64,000 nt of DNA from a virus, in the IMG/VR virus record IMGVR_UViG_3300026488_000024, positions 16,040-80,039 of that record; one strand, given 5' to 3'. The notes under the pieces are model-generated. The model saw nothing but the letters and a program-made list of their open reading frames with translations, had not been told where the DNA came from and searched no databases. The position numbers and the translations under genes are program-made. How positions within the stretch are numbered: the stretch's first letter is position 1; each line of letters begins with the position of its first letter. This document shows positions 31,956 to 63,670 of this stretch, piece after piece.

Positions 31956-33875
31956 ATGGCAAATTTTGGAACTCTAATCCTAACCAATAAAGGGCGCGAG
32001 CTGATTGCAAAATCTATAGTTGAAGGATTTGATTTGCAATACTTGTATGGTAAAGTTGGTGATGGTATTTGGCCTGATAACATTGTACCTGAATTGCTTG
32101 AGGATTTAATTTCTCCAAAGGGTATTGCTAAATTTTTAACCTATCCTTACATTGAAGACAATGTTATACACTGCGAATTAGTATTTGATAATACAAATGT
32201 AACTGAGGGGTTTTATTTACGTGAATTTGGTATTTTTGTAAGAGATGAAAATGGCGAAGAAGTTTTGTTTGCAGTTGCTTATGACGATGAGCCTACATAC
32301 ATTCCGCCTTCCTCTAGTATGTATTTTGAGGAACGCTTTGAGCTTAAAATCCTCATAAGTAATACTTCAGATGTTAAAATCAAAGTTGCTCCTAGCAATA
32401 ACTTTGTAGTTGCCGACGATTTTAATCGTTTGGTTAATATTTGTAATAAATACGGAATTCAATGGAATGAAGGTTCATATATTCCGAAAATACAAAATTG
32501 TATTCTCTATTTGCCTATTGCTGACGAGTATGAATTAGGTACGCCCCTGGAGTACGATCCTTTAACAGGATATTACCAAAAGGCTCTAAATTACGAGAAT
32601 GTAAACTGGTATTACGTCGATAAAGATATTGTACAATTAACTGGTCCATTTCAAACTTTCGATACAAACTTATTAAACCTTCCCGCCAATACATTTTTAT
32701 ATCTCGATTCAAATGGATCGTATACTCCAAATGAAGTTGGAAAATATCCAATTGCATATTACTTACGCGACGGGATTATTTATACCTTCGGTCCTATTGC
32801 AAAACTTTCTTATTTCCTAGCAGATAAATATGCTAAAACTTATAGCGACAAAGTTGAGCAAGATTTATTAACTAATTTAGCAAATGTAAAAAGCGAATTA
32901 CAAACATCAATCGACAACCTAAATACAAAACTGGATACTGTTGATTTAAATCATACAAATACGGAAAATGTAATCTTTTCAAAAATTGAGGATTTGCAAT
33001 ATCAAATTATCGATATTAAGAATATTTTTGGAAGCTATGAGATTACAGTTGATAGTAATAATGCTGAGACATTTGATATAAACGAAGTTCTCTCAAAACC
33101 TTATAGCACAATTACAATCTATTTTGCAACAGATATAGCTTTTGAAAACCAAACAATTGTAGTTTCAAAGAAAAATGTATCACTTATCGGGCAATTAAAG
33201 AGCGATGGAACTATTCCTAACATTTCATTTTTAAACACTACAATTTCATGTACTGAAGGTAGCCTCACGCTTAAAAATATGAATCTGGATATCAAAAATT
33301 TAGCATCGCTTGATGTATTTGCATTTATTAATGCAGCGTATGCAAAAATTTATCTTGAAAACTTAAATATTCAATGTGGATATGAATATCTGGTAAATCT
33401 AAATGAAGACTCTCAAGTATACTTTAAGTATGTAAACTTACCAGTTGAAATTCCAGTTAAACTATGTAACATAGATACCTTTGCAAAAGTATATTTGGAA
33501 AACTATGAACCGTATACCTTTGTAGAAATTGATAGTAACGCAAACGAACCTAAACTAGATTCAAATGGCGATGTTATTGTCAATACATATTTCCTTTTAG
33601 ATTTATGTAGCGGCGTTACATATAGTGATTTAGGTGTTCCAACAAATATTCTGTATAAGGAAGTATATGTAGGAACACCTGAGGAAACAGTTTACGATTC
33701 TAATGCAACTACAGATTCAAACTCTACAACTACTGATTCCAATTCAAGTACTACGGACTCAAATTCTACAACCACTGACTCGAACTCTAGTACAACCGAT
33801 TCTAATGACGTAACTACGGATTCAAATTCTAGTACTATAGATTCAAATAGTACTACTACAGATTCTAACGCATAG
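31956..33875 (+). CDS. Tail-collar fibre protein with DSN-repeat tail
   Basis: This is a 639-residue protein. Residues 1-150 form a recognisable tail-collar fibre N-terminal domain (TLILTNKGRELIAKSIVEG, VGDGIWPDN, VTEGFYLREFGIFVRDENGE), the module that anchors side fibres to the baseplate in P2-like and many other phages. Residues 290-345 contain a short coiled coil, and 350-540 look like right-handed beta-helix rungs. The final 60 residues are a low-complexity Thr/Ser-Asp-Ser-Asn repeat. It is probably a fibre whose distal part contacts the host. Confidence 0.75.
   Translation: MANFGTLILTNKGRELIAKSIVEGFDLQYLYGKVGDGIWPDNIVPELLEDLISPKGIAKFLTYPYIEDNVIHCELVFDNTNVTEGFYLREFGIFVRDENGEEVLFAVAYDDEPTYIPPSSSMYFEERFELKILISNTSDVKIKVAPSNNFVVADDFNRLVNICNKYGIQWNEGSYIPKIQNCILYLPIADEYELGTPLEYDPLTGYYQKALNYENVNWYYVDKDIVQLTGPFQTFDTNLLNLPANTFLYLDSNGSYTPNEVGKYPIAYYLRDGIIYTFGPIAKLSYFLADKYAKTYSDKVEQDLLTNLANVKSELQTSIDNLNTKLDTVDLNHTNTENVIFSKIEDLQYQIIDIKNIFGSYEITVDSNNAETFDINEVLSKPYSTITIYFATDIAFENQTIVVSKKNVSLIGQLKSDGTIPNISFLNTTISCTEGSLTLKNMNLDIKNLASLDVFAFINAAYAKIYLENLNIQCGYEYLVNLNEDSQVYFKYVNLPVEIPVKLCNIDTFAKVYLENYEPYTFVEIDSNANEPKLDSNGDVIVNTYFLLDLCSGVTYSDLGVPTNILYKEVYVGTPEETVYDSNATTDSNSTTTDSNSSTTDSNSTTTDSNSSTTDSNDVTTDSNSSTIDSNSTTTDSNA
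33696..33872 (+). repeat. Coding repeat: Thr/Ser-Asp-Ser-Asn tail
   Basis: Nine Asp-Ser-Asn units, most spaced by three residues of Ser/Thr, end the collar fibre. At DNA level the units are variants of GATTCNAATTC with mixed synonymous codons (GAT/GAC, TCA/TCC/TCT), so the peptide rather than the DNA appears to be conserved. Confidence 0.85.
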
Positions 33876-42059: not shown

Positions 42060-42923
42060 TTAGAAACTGCCTGTTACAAAAATCTGTATGTTATTTGTAT
42101 TTGATACTCTTAGTATTTCTTCCCATAGAGTTTTAAAAGTGGACGGCTGTACTAGGTTTTCAAGTTCATCTATAAAAGCATACCCATTTTGAATGCTATG
42201 AAGTGCAACAAATATGGATAGTGCATTTAGTGTTTCACTGCCCAGTATATTTACAGGAATCAAACGTTTTATCCCTTTTATATTGCAGTAAATTATATTG
42301 TCAATTACATATAAATCTTCAATTCTATTTTCCAGTTTCTTTAAAGCTTGTACGATTTTCTTTGTTTGCTTATGTTCTTGAATTTCTTTTAGTCTTTTTA
42401 TAATTTCAGGCATATTTACTCTTGGTGAAATGAAGATAGAATTTCTATACTCTCGGTTTTCTAGTTTTTTGAAATCTGAAGTTTCCCTTAAGCTTACATT
42501 TACAATATTTGGTTGCTCTACTTCTATTTCCCAGCATACTTTCATATTTTTCCGATTACAATTCTTGGAAATGATGTACTCCAAAATATAGCAGTAGGAG
42601 CCTATCAATTTAGGCTCCTTTTTTATACAAAGCTTTCTTCTTTCACCATTTTCTAAGTATCCGACAATTTCTATGCATTTTTCCGTATCCAGATTGTAAA
42701 ACATTGAGTCAAATACATCTCCGTTAATTTCTAGAAAGCCTCGCACTCTAGCAATATCCAATATACTATGGGGATACATGTAGTTGCACAGTAGATAAAT
42801 TGCTTCTAAAATTGAAGTCTTTATGCAAGTACTTTTTCCGTATATCAAGTTGATTTTTTGTAGATTATTGATTTCTAGATTGTCAACTCCTCTAAAATGC
42901 TGAATTTTTACTTGCTTGAGCAC
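42060..42923 (-). CDS. ABC/SMC-type ATPase (AAA15-like) with degenerate P-loop
   Basis: This is a 287-residue protein. The N terminus (KIQHFRGVDNLEI, then INLIYG29KSTCIKT36SILEAI) is the start of an OLD/RecF-type ATPase. The P-loop should read GxxxxGK[ST], but its second Gly is Ile34. A signature-like LGSETLNALS (227-236) and Walker B FID252E253LEN follow. The final FVTGSF lacks the switch His of the usual 'ITTHS' and the protein stops there. It starts with GTG, 12 bases after AGGAGG. It may be a regulator or a catalytically weak partner; it pairs with the gene just upstream. Confidence 0.65.
   Translation of the reverse strand: MLKQVKIQHFRGVDNLEINNLQKINLIYGKSTCIKTSILEAIYLLCNYMYPHSILDIARVRGFLEINGDVFDSMFYNLDTEKCIEIVGYLENGERRKLCIKKEPKLIGSYCYILEYIISKNCNRKNMKVCWEIEVEQPNIVNVSLRETSDFKKLENREYRNSIFISPRVNMPEIIKRLKEIQEHKQTKKIVQALKKLENRIEDLYVIDNIIYCNIKGIKRLIPVNILGSETLNALSIFVALHSIQNGYAFIDELENLVQPSTFKTLWEEILRVSNTNNIQIFVTGSF
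42596..42624 (+). terminator. Antisense terminator-like hairpin inside the ATPase gene
   Basis: AGGAGCCTA / TAGGCTCCT (nine-base-pair stem, six-base loop) is followed by TTTTTT on the + strand. It lies inside a - strand coding region and would stop transcription running opposite to the gene. Confidence 0.5.
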
Positions 42924-47315: not shown

Positions 47316-47723
47316 TTATCGCATAAAAACTGAAATTCCATGAATTGCCAAGAGTGCTGGAAATAATCCTAAAAGTAAAGCAATTGAAGCAATCAATGCA
47401 GATACATCTTTAAGTACAATTGTTTTTGAAATACTTGGAATAATTATCTGAAATTCAATTAAAGAATTTTGCATTGTGAATACTGGTACAGCAATAATTT
47501 CCTCAATTTTCTTAACTGGCAAATCATCATTGATTTTCTGCAGATACTTATGAATTTCGTCAACTTGTATTTCTTCAACTTTACCACGTATCGCAAGTAT
47601 CATTATTCCAATAATCAACATCACTAAAAAGAAATGCATAAATTTGATGCTTAAAAATATTGCAATACTAATACATAATGCAGCATATATCAACTTTCCA
47701 ATAGTCTTTATAACCTTTTCCAT
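47316..47723 (-). CDS. Small membrane protein
   Basis: This is a 135-residue protein. Two spans lie at about residues 8-45, then a loop of about 60 residues, then a C-terminal span (ASIALLLGLFPALLAIHGIS). GGAGG lies eight bases before the ATG, inside the end of the RuvC-like gene, whose last 16 bases it overlaps. Confidence 0.55.
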   Translation of the reverse strand: MEKVIKTIGKLIYAALCISIAIFLSIKFMHFFLVMLIIGIMILAIRGKVEEIQVDEIHKYLQKINDDLPVKKIEEIIAVPVFTMQNSLIEFQIIIPSISKTIVLKDVSALIASIALLLGLFPALLAIHGISVFMR

Positions 47724-48610
47724 ATCGTTTCCTCCCAGTTCTTTACATACTTAAACTCGTATTCAGTGTTTGCTACTTTCTTAAAATCATTGAGGATTAT
47801 TGCTGTATCTGGAAAAGAAATTTTGAGTTCTTGTTTTAGATATTGATTGTAACCTTTGTACATATGATTCTTTGCAGCAACAATGTCTGCAAATAAGATT
47901 GAGTTATCTTCGCGTATAGTTAGTCGTTTTGAAATTCTTTTGATACTTTTACCATTATGTTTATCAATGATATTTGAGTCGCTTTCATCAATATATCTTA
48001 TCAAAATTTTGCTTTTTTGACACATATCAAGTAGAGGTTTATATAATTTTTTGAGATGGGAAATTGTTTTATCTTTTTCCTTTTTATGATTTTCGGATTT
48101 TAGAATATCACCGATAAATAAATAGCCAATTTTATGTAACTTCATGTACTTGATAAGTTTTGCAAAGAACTTATTTAACTCTTTCTCATTTTTGAAAAAG
48201 TAGAGTACTCCAATTTGAAATACATCGTCAACAAATGCAATACAATCAGTATTTACATCGATTGCAATGCAATTTCTAGATGGAGCATATATTTTTACAT
48301 TATTGTGAACAATATCAACTTTTAAATTCGCTTTAAAGTATTCGTTATACCTTTCCTCGATTTTCCACGTAAAGTGAAAATCTGATAAATCTAATTGTCC
48401 ACGTCCTGTATCAACAATTTTATTCCTGCCAACTTTTATAAACCCTTCGATTCTAAAGTAAGGAGTGAAAATTGGTTCTCTGGAATTTTTTCTCAAAACT
48501 ATTGCATCAGCATATGCTTCGGGAATTTCAAGTTCTTTAACATTTGGTTGTTTATAATAGGACTTTACGTAAGCTATATATTTTTGAGCATATAGATTTA
48601 CGTCAAGCAT
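47708..48610 (-). CDS. RuvC-like protein, distant TnpB/Cas12-type candidate (short form)
   Basis: This is a 300-residue protein. Three segments follow the order of RuvC motifs in TnpB/Cas12 proteins: CIAID118VNTDCIAFVD (I), YLFIGDIL (162-170, where the Glu of motif II would be) and ILFAD242IVAAKNHM (III, resembling 'DxNAAxN'). The equivalent segments of the 381-residue protein at 49,156 read LLAIDLGTLNPIAAV, ILLIGSVV and FTNKDIIAALNM. In motif II the expected Glu is replaced by Gly in both. No zinc-finger cysteines are seen. It could be a nuclease-inactive relative or an unrelated RNase-H-fold protein. GGAGG precedes the ATG. Confidence 0.4.
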   Translation of the reverse strand: MLDVNLYAQKYIAYVKSYYKQPNVKELEIPEAYADAIVLRKNSREPIFTPYFRIEGFIKVGRNKIVDTGRGQLDLSDFHFTWKIEERYNEYFKANLKVDIVHNNVKIYAPSRNCIAIDVNTDCIAFVDDVFQIGVLYFFKNEKELNKFFAKLIKYMKLHKIGYLFIGDILKSENHKKEKDKTISHLKKLYKPLLDMCQKSKILIRYIDESDSNIIDKHNGKSIKRISKRLTIREDNSILFADIVAAKNHMYKGYNQYLKQELKISFPDTAIILNDFKKVANTEYEFKYVKNWEETIWKRL

Positions 48611-48655
48611 TTTTAACCCACCTCCAATTAAAAGTAAAAAATGATTGAAAAGAAA

Positions 48656-48682
48656 GGGGCGGGTATATAAACTACCCGCCCC
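48656..48682 (-). terminator. Terminator after the tiny membrane gene
   Basis: GGGGCGGGTA / TACCCGCCCC is followed on the - strand by TTTCTTTTC. It separates the RuvC-like gene at 47,708 from the genes upstream. Confidence 0.85.
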
Positions 48683-48683
48683 A

Positions 48684-48785
48684 TTACAATCCCTCGGATA
48701 CTACAATACAAAGATTAATCACTGTCAGAATTACAATAAGCCAAAATAGAAGGCTAAGTAACTTATCTGCATATTTTTTACTCAT
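48684..48785 (-). CDS. Tiny single-span membrane protein (33 residues)
   Basis: The peptide opens MSKKYADKLL and continues as a single hydrophobic span (LLFWLIVILTVINLCIVV). It overlaps the stop of the previous gene and its own stop touches the following terminator. There is no good ribosome binding site, so translation would rely on coupling. It resembles the 26-residue gene at 43,523 in size, position and layout. Confidence 0.5.
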   Translation of the reverse strand: MSKKYADKLLSLLFWLIVILTVINLCIVVSEGL

Positions 48786-49116
48786 GTGGCTCAGGCTCAT
48801 TATTTGAACTTGAAGTACCCACTTTTCCTTTTGCAGATAAATACAATACTAGAAACGCTATAGTCTCCTCTGGACTTAATTCATCAAATGGTTTAGGAAT
48901 CGTAATTGGTTTATAAGGTAGCTCTACATTTGAAACAAATCCCTTAAACTTATCGAATCTAAAGTAATATACAGGTTCGTTGTTAAAATATCCGTATTTT
49001 CTAAGCAGGAACTCATAGTCAAGTATTTTATATTTCTTTGGATTTTTTGTATCTGCTTTAAAATCCTTGTGAGTTGTAAGAGGTTCAATCTTTTGGATTA
49101 TATAAACGTACTTCAT
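48778..49116 (-). CDS. Small unrecognised protein
   Basis: This 112-residue protein has beta-rich segments (KYVYIIQKIEPL, YYFRFDKFKGFVSNVE), a helix rich in Glu and Ala near residues 80-95, and a polar tail (SSNNEPEPHE). AAGGAGG precedes the ATG. It lies directly downstream of the larger RuvC-like gene. Confidence 0.6.
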   Translation of the reverse strand: MKYVYIIQKIEPLTTHKDFKADTKNPKKYKILDYEFLLRKYGYFNNEPVYYFRFDKFKGFVSNVELPYKPITIPKPFDELSPEETIAFLVLYLSAKGKVGTSSSNNEPEPHE

Positions 49117-49155
49117 CTTTCTATAAACCTCCTTTTTATATTTTTGGATTTTTTT

Positions 49156-50301
49156 TTAAATTGCCATGCAGTTGAGATTTACGTTGGGATTTTGTAAATT
49201 AAGCTCGTAATTTAAATGTCTAATTTCATCAATGTATGTATGAGTATCATTTCTTGTAAATTTTTCAATGTAATAGTTTTCAATGTCTCTATTTACGGAA
49301 AAAAGCATGTTTAATGCTGCAATTATATCTTTATTTGTAAAAACTAGTTTATTGCCTAGCTTTACATAAAGGCCCATTAATTCTTTGCTTGGATAGACTC
49401 TAGTTCCTAGAAAATATCTAGATGTATGCTGCTCTTCAACTGGTAGCCAATTAATTTGTGCTTCATCTAGGAAATTTAGAAGATATATTTTGATTGCATT
49501 TAATCTTGCAAAAGTTATAAACTTTTTGAATTCCTCGAAAGTCAACTCACTATATCTTGCTTTCTTCTTGACATTAATCAGCGTATCCTTGTAAACAACT
49601 GATCCAATTAGTAAAATATCATCTTTTTTCAAGTGGTTTTGAATAAAGTTTTCGTAAAGAATTTTGTAGAGTGTAAATACGTTATATTGCTTTCCTTGAT
49701 ACTCTGTATAAAAGAGTTTTTCTTTATGCTTGCGCAATGCTCCAAGTAAATCTCTTGTCATTAAATACTCATTGTATACTGCAACTAAATTTGCCTCGGG
49801 AATGTAGAATAAGTCTTGAAGTCCCTCGTATGAAAATCCTATAAATTTGCTATCTTCGATTTTCACTGCAGCAATTGGATTCAATGTACCTAAATCAATT
49901 GCAAGCAGATTTTCACTAATTCCTTTTGTAACCTCTAAAATTACGTCTTTGTATATTTGCATAAAGTAATTTAAGACATCATTTAGATTCTCAGCCTCGT
50001 ATACAAAAGAACCCAAGTGTATTTTATAGGTTTTGCGTTTAAATGAATAACGCAAGTATCCTTTGATTCCAGAAGGTTTTAAATCCTCAGTATTTACATA
50101 AAAGTAAATTTTCACCTTTTGATTAAGACGATAAATATTGCTTGCGTAAATATGCAAGTTGTACTTTTCATAATCTATATCTGCAAGGAAATTGAGAATA
50201 TTTCTTAACTCATGATCTGCCTCATAAAACTCCTTATAGGCATTAATGTATTTTGGTTTTATCTTGAGTTTCTTTGCAATAGTATCAAATGCTGTATACA
50301 T
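49156..50301 (-). CDS. RuvC-like protein, TnpB/Cas12-type candidate with altered motif II
   Basis: This 381-residue protein has the usual TnpB length. Residues 132-146 (LLAID136LGTLNPIAAV) match RuvC motif I; 321-332 (FTNKD325IIAALNML) match the 'DxNAAxN' motif III; between them, WLPVEEQHTSRYF resembles the TnpB 'vxpxyTS' segment before the zinc finger, but the four Cys are absent. At the motif II position (ILLIGSVV, 229-236) the catalytic Glu appears to be missing. The N-terminal 130 residues are of mixed type. If the family call is right, this would be a nuclease-dead or altered TnpB relative. No guide RNA or transposon end is evident nearby. GAGGAGG precedes the ATG. Confidence 0.45.
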   Translation of the reverse strand: MYTAFDTIAKKLKIKPKYINAYKEFYEADHELRNILNFLADIDYEKYNLHIYASNIYRLNQKVKIYFYVNTEDLKPSGIKGYLRYSFKRKTYKIHLGSFVYEAENLNDVLNYFMQIYKDVILEVTKGISENLLAIDLGTLNPIAAVKIEDSKFIGFSYEGLQDLFYIPEANLVAVYNEYLMTRDLLGALRKHKEKLFYTEYQGKQYNVFTLYKILYENFIQNHLKKDDILLIGSVVYKDTLINVKKKARYSELTFEEFKKFITFARLNAIKIYLLNFLDEAQINWLPVEEQHTSRYFLGTRVYPSKELMGLYVKLGNKLVFTNKDIIAALNMLFSVNRDIENYYIEKFTRNDTHTYIDEIRHLNYELNLQNPNVNLNCMAI

Positions 50302-50348: not shown

Positions 50349-50376
50349 GAGATGGGAGCAATTAAGCTCCCATCTC
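50349..50376 (-). terminator. Terminator overlapping the end of the 268-residue gene
   Basis: GAGATGGGAGC / GCTCCCATCTC. The upstream arm, as transcribed, encodes the last residues of the gene at 50,362. The - strand continues CAATTTTC. Confidence 0.8.
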
Positions 50377-51168
50377 GCTTTGTTTTTGTAAGTAGTATTC
50401 AATTGCTGTCAAAAATTCTGCATTAATTGCATAATATTCTTCATCTAGATTTGAAAGTTTTTGTAAAACTTTATTTTGCTCTGTTTTGATTTTATTCAAA
50501 TACAAATCAAGGATTTTATCGTAGAATATAACTGATACTGAACTTGGAACTGAAACTCCAAGTTCATTTTCAATAAGCTCAATAATTCTATCAACAACTC
50601 TATTGATATGAGGTGTGTACTCATCGAATCCCAAATCTCCAGAAATTATTGCATCATACTTTTCATATTGATTGTAAAGCTCGTATGCTCTTTCAATTAA
50701 ATCAATTACGTAATTGATAACGTCTGGTTTGTATGTAGTTTTCTCTGCAACTTCGCTAAATGCATCTACGTATGCATTAATATATTTTCCGTAGCCATTT
50801 GTAAACCACTGTATAAATCCTCCGTTTCCCACTTGATAATTGAGAGTTGAAGTAAGAATTGCTAAACGTTCAAAATCATCTAATTTAGTGAGAGCTTCTC
50901 CAAAATCTTTTGAACGATTGTTTTCCCAAATGTCATATGCTCTCTTTACATATTTTTTGAGAACACTTTTTTCCTCATATTTTGATGCAATCTTTTCAAA
51001 TACCTTATTTTGGACATCATTAAAGCGTCTCTTTAAAAGTCCAATTGTAAACTCTGAAAAGATTAAGTCCTTTGGAAGATCTTTTGTAACCTCATCGATG
51101 TTGTAAAATACTGCAGATAAGATTTCATCGTTTTTAACGTCGTTGAGAAATGTTTCGAGAGTCTTCAT
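50362..51168 (-). CDS. DMP19 (DUF4375)-like protein
   Basis: This is a 268-residue protein. LTSTLNYQVGNGGFIQWFTN, followed by YGKYINAYVDAFSEV, matches the core of the DMP19/DUF4375 family ('E-V-NGGF-Q-F-N-SG-Y'). Members occur in bacteria and phages; some are thought to mimic DNA or bind histone-like proteins, but the function is not settled. The protein is longer than the typical domain, with added helices at the C terminus. AAGGAGG lies 11 bases before the ATG. Confidence 0.6.
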   Translation of the reverse strand: MKTLETFLNDVKNDEILSAVFYNIDEVTKDLPKDLIFSEFTIGLLKRRFNDVQNKVFEKIASKYEEKSVLKKYVKRAYDIWENNRSKDFGEALTKLDDFERLAILTSTLNYQVGNGGFIQWFTNGYGKYINAYVDAFSEVAEKTTYKPDVINYVIDLIERAYELYNQYEKYDAIISGDLGFDEYTPHINRVVDRIIELIENELGVSVPSSVSVIFYDKILDLYLNKIKTEQNKVLQKLSNLDEEYYAINAEFLTAIEYYLQKQSEMGA

Positions 51169-52451: not shown

Positions 52452-52479
52452 TATACACCTCCAGTGAATTTTTGAAAAT

Positions 52480-52487
52480 TATTTAGA
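52480..52487 (-). promoter_or_regulatory. Late-promoter-like element, class A (TCTAAATA)
   Basis: On the - strand GTCTAAATAATTTTCAAAAA lies 29 bases before a gene and just after a terminator. It shares the extended flank TAATTTTC with the elements at 57,467 and 62,633. Confidence 0.6.
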
Positions 52488-52510
52488 CAGATTTTACGAA
52501 TAAAAAAGAA

Positions 52511-57417: not shown

Positions 57418-57466
57418 TTTTAACTTACCTCCTTTAAGATTTTTCCTTTGAGAAATTTTGGAAAAT

Positions 57467-57474
57467 TATTTATA
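57467..57474 (-). promoter_or_regulatory. Late-promoter-like element, class A (TATAAATA)
   Basis: The - strand reads GTATAAATAATTTTCCAAAA, identical to the T4 late promoter core TATAAATA, 50 bases before the gene starting at 57,417. The same extended sequence occurs at 62,633. Confidence 0.75.
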
Positions 57475-57519
57475 CAGGAAAAGAAATCTAAAAAAATGCA
57501 ATAGGAAAAGCTTTTAACG

Positions 57520-62599: not shown

Positions 62600-62632
62600 C
62601 TTTCTTACCTCCTTTAGAAAAATTTGGAAAAT

Positions 62633-62640
62633 TATTTATA
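62633..62640 (-). promoter_or_regulatory. Late-promoter-like element, class A (TATAAATA)
   Basis: The - strand reads GTATAAATAATTTTCCAAAT, nearly identical to the element at 57,467 over more than 20 bases, 34 bases before the gene at 62,599. Confidence 0.75.
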
Positions 62641-62747
62641 CAAAAATTTCGGATATAAAATGAGACGTTGTAAGATGTAGATTTTTTCGGTATTTTTTGA
62701 CTTCCTAGACTACATTTGCATAAATAAATAATGAAGACAAAAAAAAA

Positions 62748-62891
62748 TTATCTGTAGATGAGATACAAGATTACCAGGTTCCAAATTGCAACAATTAATG
62801 CAATGTAAATTAGAATCCTTCTTTTGAATGTCTTAAAATCGTGCTGTAATTGTGAAAGTTCTTTTTCAAGGTTATGTAGCTTTTTGTTCAT
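62748..62891 (-). CDS. Candidate 47-residue coiled-coil/membrane peptide
   Basis: Residues 1-25 form an amphipathic helix (NLEKELSQLQHDFKTFKRR) and residues 26-46 a membrane span (ILIYIALIVAIWNLVILYLI). This is a tail-anchored layout. There is no clear ribosome binding site. A run of T follows the stop on the - strand. Confidence 0.5.
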   Translation of the reverse strand: MNKKLHNLEKELSQLQHDFKTFKRRILIYIALIVAIWNLVILYLIYR

Positions 62892-62952
62892 TTGTTTTAC
62901 ACCAAGCAAAAAAAATCAATATTGCGTTAAAGTGGTTATTAGGCAAAAAAAA

Positions 62953-62978
62953 TCTCTCTCCCCGAAAGGGGAGAGAGA
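62953..62978 (-). terminator. Terminator after the 41-residue gene
   Basis: TCTCTCTCCCC / GGGGAGAGAGA with a GAAA/TTTC loop is followed on the - strand by TTTTTTTT. The stem abuts a second hairpin. Confidence 0.9.
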
Positions 62979-63016
62979 GGGAGTAGTGAAACTATTTTGG
63001 TAGCTTCACTACTCCC
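62979..63016. repeat. Second hairpin, overlapping the end of the 41-residue gene
   Basis: GGGAGTAGTGAA / TTCACTACTCCC, extendable to 16 base pairs with one mismatch, has no T-run. It covers the stop codon and directly abuts the terminator stem. Confidence 0.7.
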
Positions 63017-63117
63017 TTGATCTTTAAAGTTTCAGTACGTACTGGTTTTTTACCAGTACGTACTTTATAAGTGATTAGTAAATCGAGGTAAAGTTTTTGG
63101 AATTTAATTTTTTTCAT
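62992..63117 (-). CDS. Small basic protein (41 residues)
   Basis: The peptide begins MKKIKFQKLYLDLLITYK and is strongly basic. GAGGAGG lies six bases before the ATG and a class B late-like promoter 32 bases upstream. The middle (VRTGKKPVRT) is encoded by a perfect inverted repeat. It is the only protein gene in its transcript. Confidence 0.7.
   Translation of the reverse strand: MKKIKFQKLYLDLLITYKVRTGKKPVRTETLKIKGVVKLPK
63034..63064. repeat. Inverted repeat of a palindrome inside the 41-residue gene
   Basis: Arms AGTACGTACTGGT and ACCAGTACGTACT (13 base pairs) surround five T. Each arm carries the self-complementary AGTACGTACT, so the region can form one long hairpin or two dimer-binding sites. 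Confidence 0.75.
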
Positions 63118-63148
63118 TTCCAACCTCCTCTTTTTTATTTCGTCCTAT

Positions 63149-63156
63149 TATTTATA
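63149..63156 (-). promoter_or_regulatory. Late-promoter-like element, class B (TATAAATA)
   Basis: The - strand reads GAGTTGTATAAATAATAGGA, then CGAAATAAAAAAGAGGAGG. The core and flank nearly match the element at 63,981. Confidence 0.75.
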
Positions 63157-63157
63157 C

Positions 63158-63623
63158 AACTCGTACCGTTTAAAAAAAATAAAGCATTGAAACTAAAAAA
63201 CGTGTAGAAAGCAAAAAGAAAATACATATACTTGGAAATTAGTAGTTTTCTGTATTTCCATAATATGCGAAATCATCTTGGTATTTTAGATAGATTTTTT
63301 ACAGCATTTGGTTTTACGTTGAATAAGTTTTCCTAGTGCATGAATGGAAGGTGAAGTTGTTGGGTACCTGCTGTTTAGATAAAACGAGAGGATATTATGT
63401 GAGTTGATTTTACAATTTACCGCGATAAACTTTTATGCAGTGGTTTTAAAGTTTTGTGAAAATTTGATGTACAGTTTGTAAAAAAATAGTTTGTAATTGT
63501 TAGAAGATGAATGATGCGGAATAAGTTTTGGTAAAAAATCGAAATCTTAATGTTTGACAGATATTTCTTGCATGTTAGATTTATGAAAAAAAAAGATATT
63601 GGAGTTGTTTGTTAAAAAGAGAG
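63158..63623. other. Non-coding stretch of about 470 bases
   Basis: No reading frame with a ribosome binding site is seen on either strand; the longest frames are 20-30 codons without support. It lies between a terminator and the promoter of the 41-residue gene. Apart from runs of A and T, I see no clear structure. Confidence 0.5.
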
Positions 63624-63670
63624 AGAGAATGGGTGAGGGAGTTACTCCTCATCTCCCTCACCCATTCTCT
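63624..63670 (-). terminator. Terminator sharing an arm with a coding region
   Basis: An 18-base-pair stem (AGAGAATGGGTGAGGGAG and its complement) has an 11-base loop that includes the stop codon. The arm transcribed first encodes the end of the gene at 63,642. The - strand continues CTCTCTTTTTAAC. Confidence 0.85.

Follow-up and report, generated by a model that had tools for sequence, protein, structure and literature searches.

Two jumbo phage proteins with TnpB-type RuvC motifs and no catalytic glutamate as possible guide-free descendants of TnpB/Cas12-type proteins

Can a phage keep RuvC domains of TnpB/Cas12 type after both nuclease activity and guide RNA have been lost? This question is raised by two genes in a 64,000-nt window of viral DNA (bases 16040–80039 of the 80-kb IMG/VR viral contig IMGVR_UViG_3300026488_000024), whose products are called P0001 and P0002 here. 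The first-pass annotation, which was made from the sequence alone, had reported two open reading frames (ORFs) of 300 and 381 amino acid residues that share three ordered segments, and had read the first and third of them as RuvC motifs I and III of TnpB/Cas12. The sizes, strand and order of the two ORFs were borne out at the coordinates listed below, which refer to the whole window. The best explanation overall, which is put forward tentatively, is that both are far-diverged, dead TnpB/Cas12-type RuvC descendants that a jumbo phage has kept and that would act guide-free, by binding.

49156–50301, minus strand: P0001, 381 residues; N-terminal domain (residues 1 to about 125) and predicted TnpB/Cas12-type RuvC domain (about 130–350), without catalytic Glu and zinc ribbon
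49888–49905, minus strand: P0001, putative RuvC motif I, LAIDLG (D136)
49600–49617, minus strand: P0001, place of motif II, ILLIGS (G233; in the other register VVYKD, residues 235–239)
49309–49332, minus strand: P0001, putative RuvC motif III, KDIIAALN (D325, N331)
47708–48610, minus strand: P0002, 300 residues; shorter N-terminal part and predicted compact RuvC domain
48251–48268, minus strand: P0002, putative RuvC motif I, IAIDVN (D118)
48104–48121, minus strand: P0002, putative motif II, LFIGDI (E to G, G167)
47867–47890, minus strand: P0002, putative RuvC motif III, ADIVAAKN (D242)

A set of 50 dereplicated TnpBs was used to build position-specific scores for the three RuvC motifs, and every protein of the virus was scored by its best collinear I-II-III set within TnpB-like spacing. 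Among the 158 virus proteins, the TnpB of an IS607-type element scored 59.8, followed by P0002 (27.0), P0001 (26.2) and the next protein at 16.6. None of 5000 shuffles of the same protein reached the score of P0002 or P0001. The top score of 413 non-TnpB control ORFs from other phages was 20.0; after the Glu column was neutralized, it was 22.3, compared with 28.2 and 29.7 for the two proteins. The 269 proteins of AR9, phiR1-37 and YS40 reached 17.6, or 20.7 with the Glu column neutralized, and an annotated TnpB of Thermus phage YS40 was recovered at 61.2. The three ordered segments are present in both proteins, with scores above those of all non-TnpB controls, and, on these scores, the resemblance to TnpB RuvC motifs is more than chance.

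The motifs of P0001 start at residues 133, 229 and 324. By position-specific score, the motif I Asp of both proteins stands in a TnpB-type [IV]GxDxG context, and the column of D136 is invariant. Motif III has the form D-x-x-A-A-x-N in P0001 as well as in P0002. In an unaided MAFFT alignment, D136, D325 and N331 of P0001 fell on invariant TnpB residues. The inter-motif spacings of P0001, 97 and 92 residues, lie inside those of TnpB (median 84, range 65–120, and median 82, range 68–96, respectively), whereas the spacing between motifs I and II of P0002 is compressed to 49 residues, compared with at least 65 in TnpB. The register of motif II in P0001 is ambiguous: MAFFT sets VVYKD (E to K) against IxIED, whereas the corresponding strand of the AlphaFold model ends at G233. 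Under either register (G233 or K238) the Glu is absent. The claim that both proteins share a Gly at this position therefore stands for the loss of Glu in both, while the Gly itself is certain only for P0002. The claim that neither has zinc-finger Cys holds: the whole proteins contain 1 and 3 Cys residues, so both lack the four-Cys zinc ribbon that TnpB carries between TS and motif III. The 'TS' noted in the larger protein is indeed found at residues 293–294 of P0001; however, the pairwise alignment of P0001 and P0002 instead puts LDEAQIN and IDESDSN at the place of the [ND]PAxTS of TnpB, and the 'TS' segment may be a chance resemblance.

In ISDra2 TnpB, the E278A change, which removes the motif II Glu, leaves a catalytically dead protein and abolishes interference, as does loss of D191 (PMC8612924). 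With neither a motif II Glu nor a zinc ribbon, P0001 and P0002 are both probably nuclease-dead, as the first-pass annotation had proposed; if they are homologous to TnpB, this is very likely.

The AlphaFold model of P0001 from its single sequence had a predicted local distance difference test score (pLDDT) of 44.6 and was fairly confident at residues 1–118 only, and its fold matches were not significant. A second run used an alignment of P0001, P0002 and 24 TnpB RuvC segments. It gave a pLDDT of 69.0 and a predicted template modeling score (pTM) of 0.54, with most of the RuvC core at 76–88, and the order of elements (strand-strand-strand-helix-helix-strand-helix-strand-hairpin-helix) was as in TnpB. 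In Foldseek searches with this model, Cas12f, Cas12o, Fanzor and Cas12k were the top matches in PDB (best E 3.6e-4), and TnpB/IS607 transposases were the top matches among viral models (27 at E<1e-3, best E 3.2e-8). The template modeling scores (TM-scores) came to about 0.3 of the query, a value that would follow from sharing of the RuvC domain alone; the modeled N-terminal part of P0001 contains only 4–5 strands and helices. Together with the motif statistics, this TnpB-like model made with TnpB rows supports a relationship to RuvC domains of TnpB/Cas12 type.

Several results weigh against descent from TnpB. The profile-profile comparison that the first-pass annotation had called for was run with hhalign against the TnpB profile and was not significant (probability 1–2.5); its local matches land on motif I or III, and other phage proteins match these scores through local zinc-finger matches. 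The structure check that it had also called for gave a TnpB/Cas12f-like model only after the single-sequence model had failed; with TnpB rows in the alignment the good model is biased and shows compatibility rather than independent proof, and it covers P0001 alone of the pair. The pairwise alignment of P0001 and P0002 ranks only fourth in the genome, so their mutual kinship is not demonstrable. Moreover, no homolog was found beyond one viral species, and conservation of the motifs thus cannot be checked more widely. Neither protein matched the Pfam, PHROGs, NCBIfam or PADLOC libraries, and PF07282 was silent on this contig, yet it detects the virus's real TnpB. A PDB sequence search gave no match, tblastn in phages identified no relatives outside the virus, and searches of IMG/VR, phages and, for P0001, GTDB genomes and plasmids returned sister contigs only. 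Likewise, no relative was found in 50 IMG/VR contigs of phages with multisubunit RNA polymerase, which were reached via the RNA polymerase beta' gene. Profile libraries miss such relatives, and only the joint motif-and-spacing test saw P0001 and P0002. With these points weighed, homology to TnpB/Cas12-type proteins is considered likely, and it is slightly more probable than its contrary that P0001 and P0002 are non-catalytic, exapted TnpB-type RuvC proteins.

Another RNase H-fold family, such as a dead RuvC-type resolvase or an RNase H-like binding protein, could have converged on two short motifs. No global profile match reaches significance, many RNase H/actin-like folds have a motif that looks like motif I and, among the matches listed, small RuvC resolvases fit the P0001 model best by target-normalized TM-score (0.53–0.62). 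However, D-x-x-A-A-x-N is the TnpB/Cas12 form of motif III, and the joint motif score was unmatched among 837 other proteins; this alternative is therefore unlikely. RuvC resolvases have a motif III of the form D-x-x-D, without the Asn of D-x-x-A-A-x-N. On reading the sequences, neither P0001 nor P0002 has a D-x-x-D motif III together with a motif II Glu. An actin-like ATPase reading of AIDLGT was rejected, as the domain remaining after motif I in P0002 would be too small. A chance resemblance of the motifs in proteins of unrelated fold is quite unlikely: the lack of any family-library match and the failure of the single-sequence model in the RuvC region would fit this, whereas the motif-scan statistics and the acceptance of the TnpB alignment by AlphaFold, with most of the core confidently modeled, argue against it.

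TnpB-like nuclease-dead repressors (TldR) are dead TnpBs that block transcription of target genes with a guide RNA; they are phage-borne and have kept guide RNA and DNA binding (PMC13418256). P0001 and P0002 could be RNA-guided DNA-binding regulators of this kind, with RuvC-type motifs and a lost catalytic Glu. A cis-guided, TldR-like role was assessed by four independent tests: N-terminal length, charge, flanking space and 3' RNA folding. The features around the two genes are as follows.

50362–51168, minus strand: DMP19-like (DNA mimic) gene, PF14300, E=3.6e-8, 34.4 bits (curated cut-off 25)
48778–49116, minus strand: 112-residue orphan between P0001 and P0002, no Pfam match
48684–48785, minus strand: open frame of 33 codons that includes a hydrophobic stretch and, as read from the sequence, may encode a small membrane peptide
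48656–48682, minus strand: intrinsic terminator hairpin of 10 pairs with a T tail, separating the P0001 group from P0002

There are 135 residues before motif I in P0001 and 117 in P0002, compared with a 5th percentile of 172 for TnpB, so that neither has the 170–280 or so residues that form a TnpB-type REC/WED part. The net charge of P0001 is +1.0 per 100 residues, which equals the median of the virus proteome, and that of its RuvC part is −0.4, whereas TnpBs range from +3.5 to +12.3. P0002 is moderately basic (+4.7; RuvC part +5.8) and falls within the low end of TnpBs, which would suit a TldR. The flanks are coding, with 39 nt after the P0001 gene, and the P0002 stop overlaps the start of the gene that follows. 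The sole gap that seems to be non-coding, 167 nt before P0002, was rejected as a place for a guide RNA because it consists of the 33-codon frame and the terminator. The RNA folding of the 3' ends of the two genes was no better than that of shuffles (z +0.3 to +1.2), whereas 5 of 6 true TnpB 3' ends, that of the virus's own TnpB included, gave z values from −1.5 to −3.4. Rfam yielded no match that supports a guide RNA; its weak matches (E at least 0.006) were all far under gathering scores and were rejected as chance. In a repeat search of 39–64 kb for an array of clustered regularly interspaced short palindromic repeats (CRISPR), ribosome-binding-site- or leader-like repeats and no array were found. 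P0001 and P0002 are thus probably not cis-guided, although a guide RNA may be encoded elsewhere, and the suggestion that they are RNA-guided regulators like TnpB-derived repressors is very unlikely. To our knowledge, the known exaptations of TnpB (Cas12, TldR and Fanzor) all retain guide RNA.

Comparison of two assemblies revealed 3 synonymous and no non-synonymous codon differences in P0002, and 8 synonymous and 4 non-synonymous differences in the last 77 codons of P0001, where the replacements are C-terminal to motif III. A strong Shine-Dalgarno sequence, GGAGGT, lies ahead of both genes. The codon counts are small; they agree with selection on the proteins and with maintenance of both genes as proteins. 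It is highly improbable that they are decaying remnants of insertion-sequence TnpB genes that are being lost, as, although an IS607 element that looks live, with TnpA and an undamaged TnpB, is present in the same virus, the ORFs are intact with strong ribosome-binding sites, synonymous differences outnumber non-synonymous ones by 11 to 4, none of the latter being in P0002, and no insertion-sequence ends or TnpA were found nearby. Of the 179 strain differences in 65 kb, 29 cluster at 48.1–49.4 kb of the window, where the two genes lie; the comparison marks this region as either a diverged allele or a patch of local recombination.

In the explanation preferred here, the RuvC (RNase H-like) domain of a TnpB/Cas12-type ancestor would have diverged and lost its nuclease activity, and the jumbo phage would keep both products as ordinary proteins. 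They would act by binding, not cutting, and with no guide of their own, since binding is the only mode of action left to a dead RuvC-fold protein that has no guide. They would interfere with RNA-guided nucleases of RuvC type, either those of the host (Cas12/TnpB) or the TnpB of the virus's own IS607 element, or with the guide RNA/heteroduplex of such nucleases, and the decoy would be produced before or during genome replication. This specific decoy or inhibitor role is the mechanism rated most likely, while being unlikely when taken by itself. The existence of a homolog-based decoy class of counter-defense, in which guide-free dead RuvC domains block RNA-guided nucleases beside a DNA mimic, is quite doubtful. 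If derived from TnpB, P0001 and P0002 would be examples of a RuvC domain that survives without nuclease activity, zinc ribbon, full N-terminal lobe and guide, and they are defined proteins in which inhibition of TnpB/Cas12 or guide-free binding of DNA or RNA can be tested.

The DMP19-like gene adjoins P0001 upstream in the same direction, the orphan between the pair is transcribed in that direction too, and a dUTPase gene lies downstream; a tblastn search of a phage collection with the DMP19-like gene gave no match. An ATPase at 42060–42923 (minus strand), in the same strand block as the pair, matches PADLOC AbiLi (E=5e-45). It is an abortive-infection-type ATPase within a phage genome; no AbiLii partner was recognized, although none was looked for in depth. 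The DMP19-like neighbor, the dUTPase and the AbiLi-like ATPase were counted as context in favor of the preferred explanation. Such blocks of small orphan genes are typical of host-takeover and counter-defense regions.

The comparison drew on three sister contigs that come from the same virus: IMGVR_3300026484_000524 (99.7% identity across 65 kb), IMGVR_3300026382_000010 (106 kb) and IMGVR_3300026484_000545 (77.8 kb). Combined, the contigs account for over 157 kb, and the virus is a contractile-tailed phage, a jumbo myophage. Its sheath is only 24–31% identical to those of PBS1/AR9, phiR1-37 and other jumbo phages. It has two multisubunit RNA polymerase gene sets, with two beta' genes that are 29% identical and beta pieces (L023, L024; sister contig G003), and a B-family DNA polymerase fused to a uracil-DNA-glycosylase (UDG)-superfamily domain (L025:551–3124, minus strand; G003). 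T4-type terminase, anaerobic ribonucleotide reductase and ThyX are also encoded. Pfam also identified genes for QueC, QueD and a QueE-like radical SAM protein in parts of the genome that lie outside the window (L005, L012 and L013); together with a FolE-like ORF spotted by eye, they suggest a possible preQ0 pathway to 7-deazaguanine modification of phage DNA. The IS607-type element (L012:10274–12569 of sister contig G002; also present in G003, L020) encodes a TnpA serine recombinase (PF00239) and a 564-residue TnpB in which the RuvC Glu and the zinc ribbon are intact. The 3' end of this tnpB forms a perfect 11-bp hairpin and folds better than shuffles (z −2.5); a search of genomes with the TnpB to find the host gave no match.

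Within the window, a leader motif, TGTATAAATAATTTTCCAAAATTT, is repeated 5' of genes at 57453–57476, 62619–62642 and 52466–52489 (all minus strand), and the set includes GTATAAATAAT at 63147 and 63979 (both minus strand). No chance occurrence is expected, and the motif may serve a phage RNA polymerase as promoter. Long ORFs are lacking from about 1 kb at 62600–63641 of an otherwise dense genome; this candidate motif lies there, as does an inverted repeat, CAGTACGTACTGG...CCAGTACGTACTG. In addition, tail-region proteins at 31956–33875 (plus strand) carry long Asp-Ser-Asn (DSN) repeats, for example tails of TTDSNSTTTDSNSS, and DSN recurs in many virion proteins of the phage.

Compared with known systems, P0001 and P0002 are similar to TnpB (IS200/IS605 and IS607 OrfB) in the motif I Asp and D-x-x-A-A-x-N of motif III in order, and P0001 also in spacing and in the match of its model made with TnpB rows to TnpB/Cas12f folds. 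Different from TnpB, they have no motif II Glu or zinc ribbon, a short N-terminal part and no transposon setting or 3' guide-RNA structure, and P0001 is not basic. Similar to TldR, they would combine an inactivated RuvC domain with a phage genome, TnpB descent being likely here though not proven; different from TldR, which keep guide RNA and DNA binding (PMC13418256), they have neither a guide RNA nor room for one, and their divergence is far stronger. With phage RuvC Holliday-junction resolvases they would share the RNase H core, to judge by the target-normalized TM-scores of the P0001 model (0.53–0.62), whereas motif III differs, the Glu is missing and there is an extra N-terminal domain. 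Finally, P0001 and P0002 are much smaller than Cas12m and Cas12f of type V, with no recognizable REC/WED, and the repeat search around their genes showed no CRISPR array. The predicted RuvC domain is nevertheless common to them, Cas12f being the top structural match of the P0001 model made with TnpB rows, and Cas12m, which binds without cutting (PMC11013384), is a precedent for RuvC effectors that work through binding.

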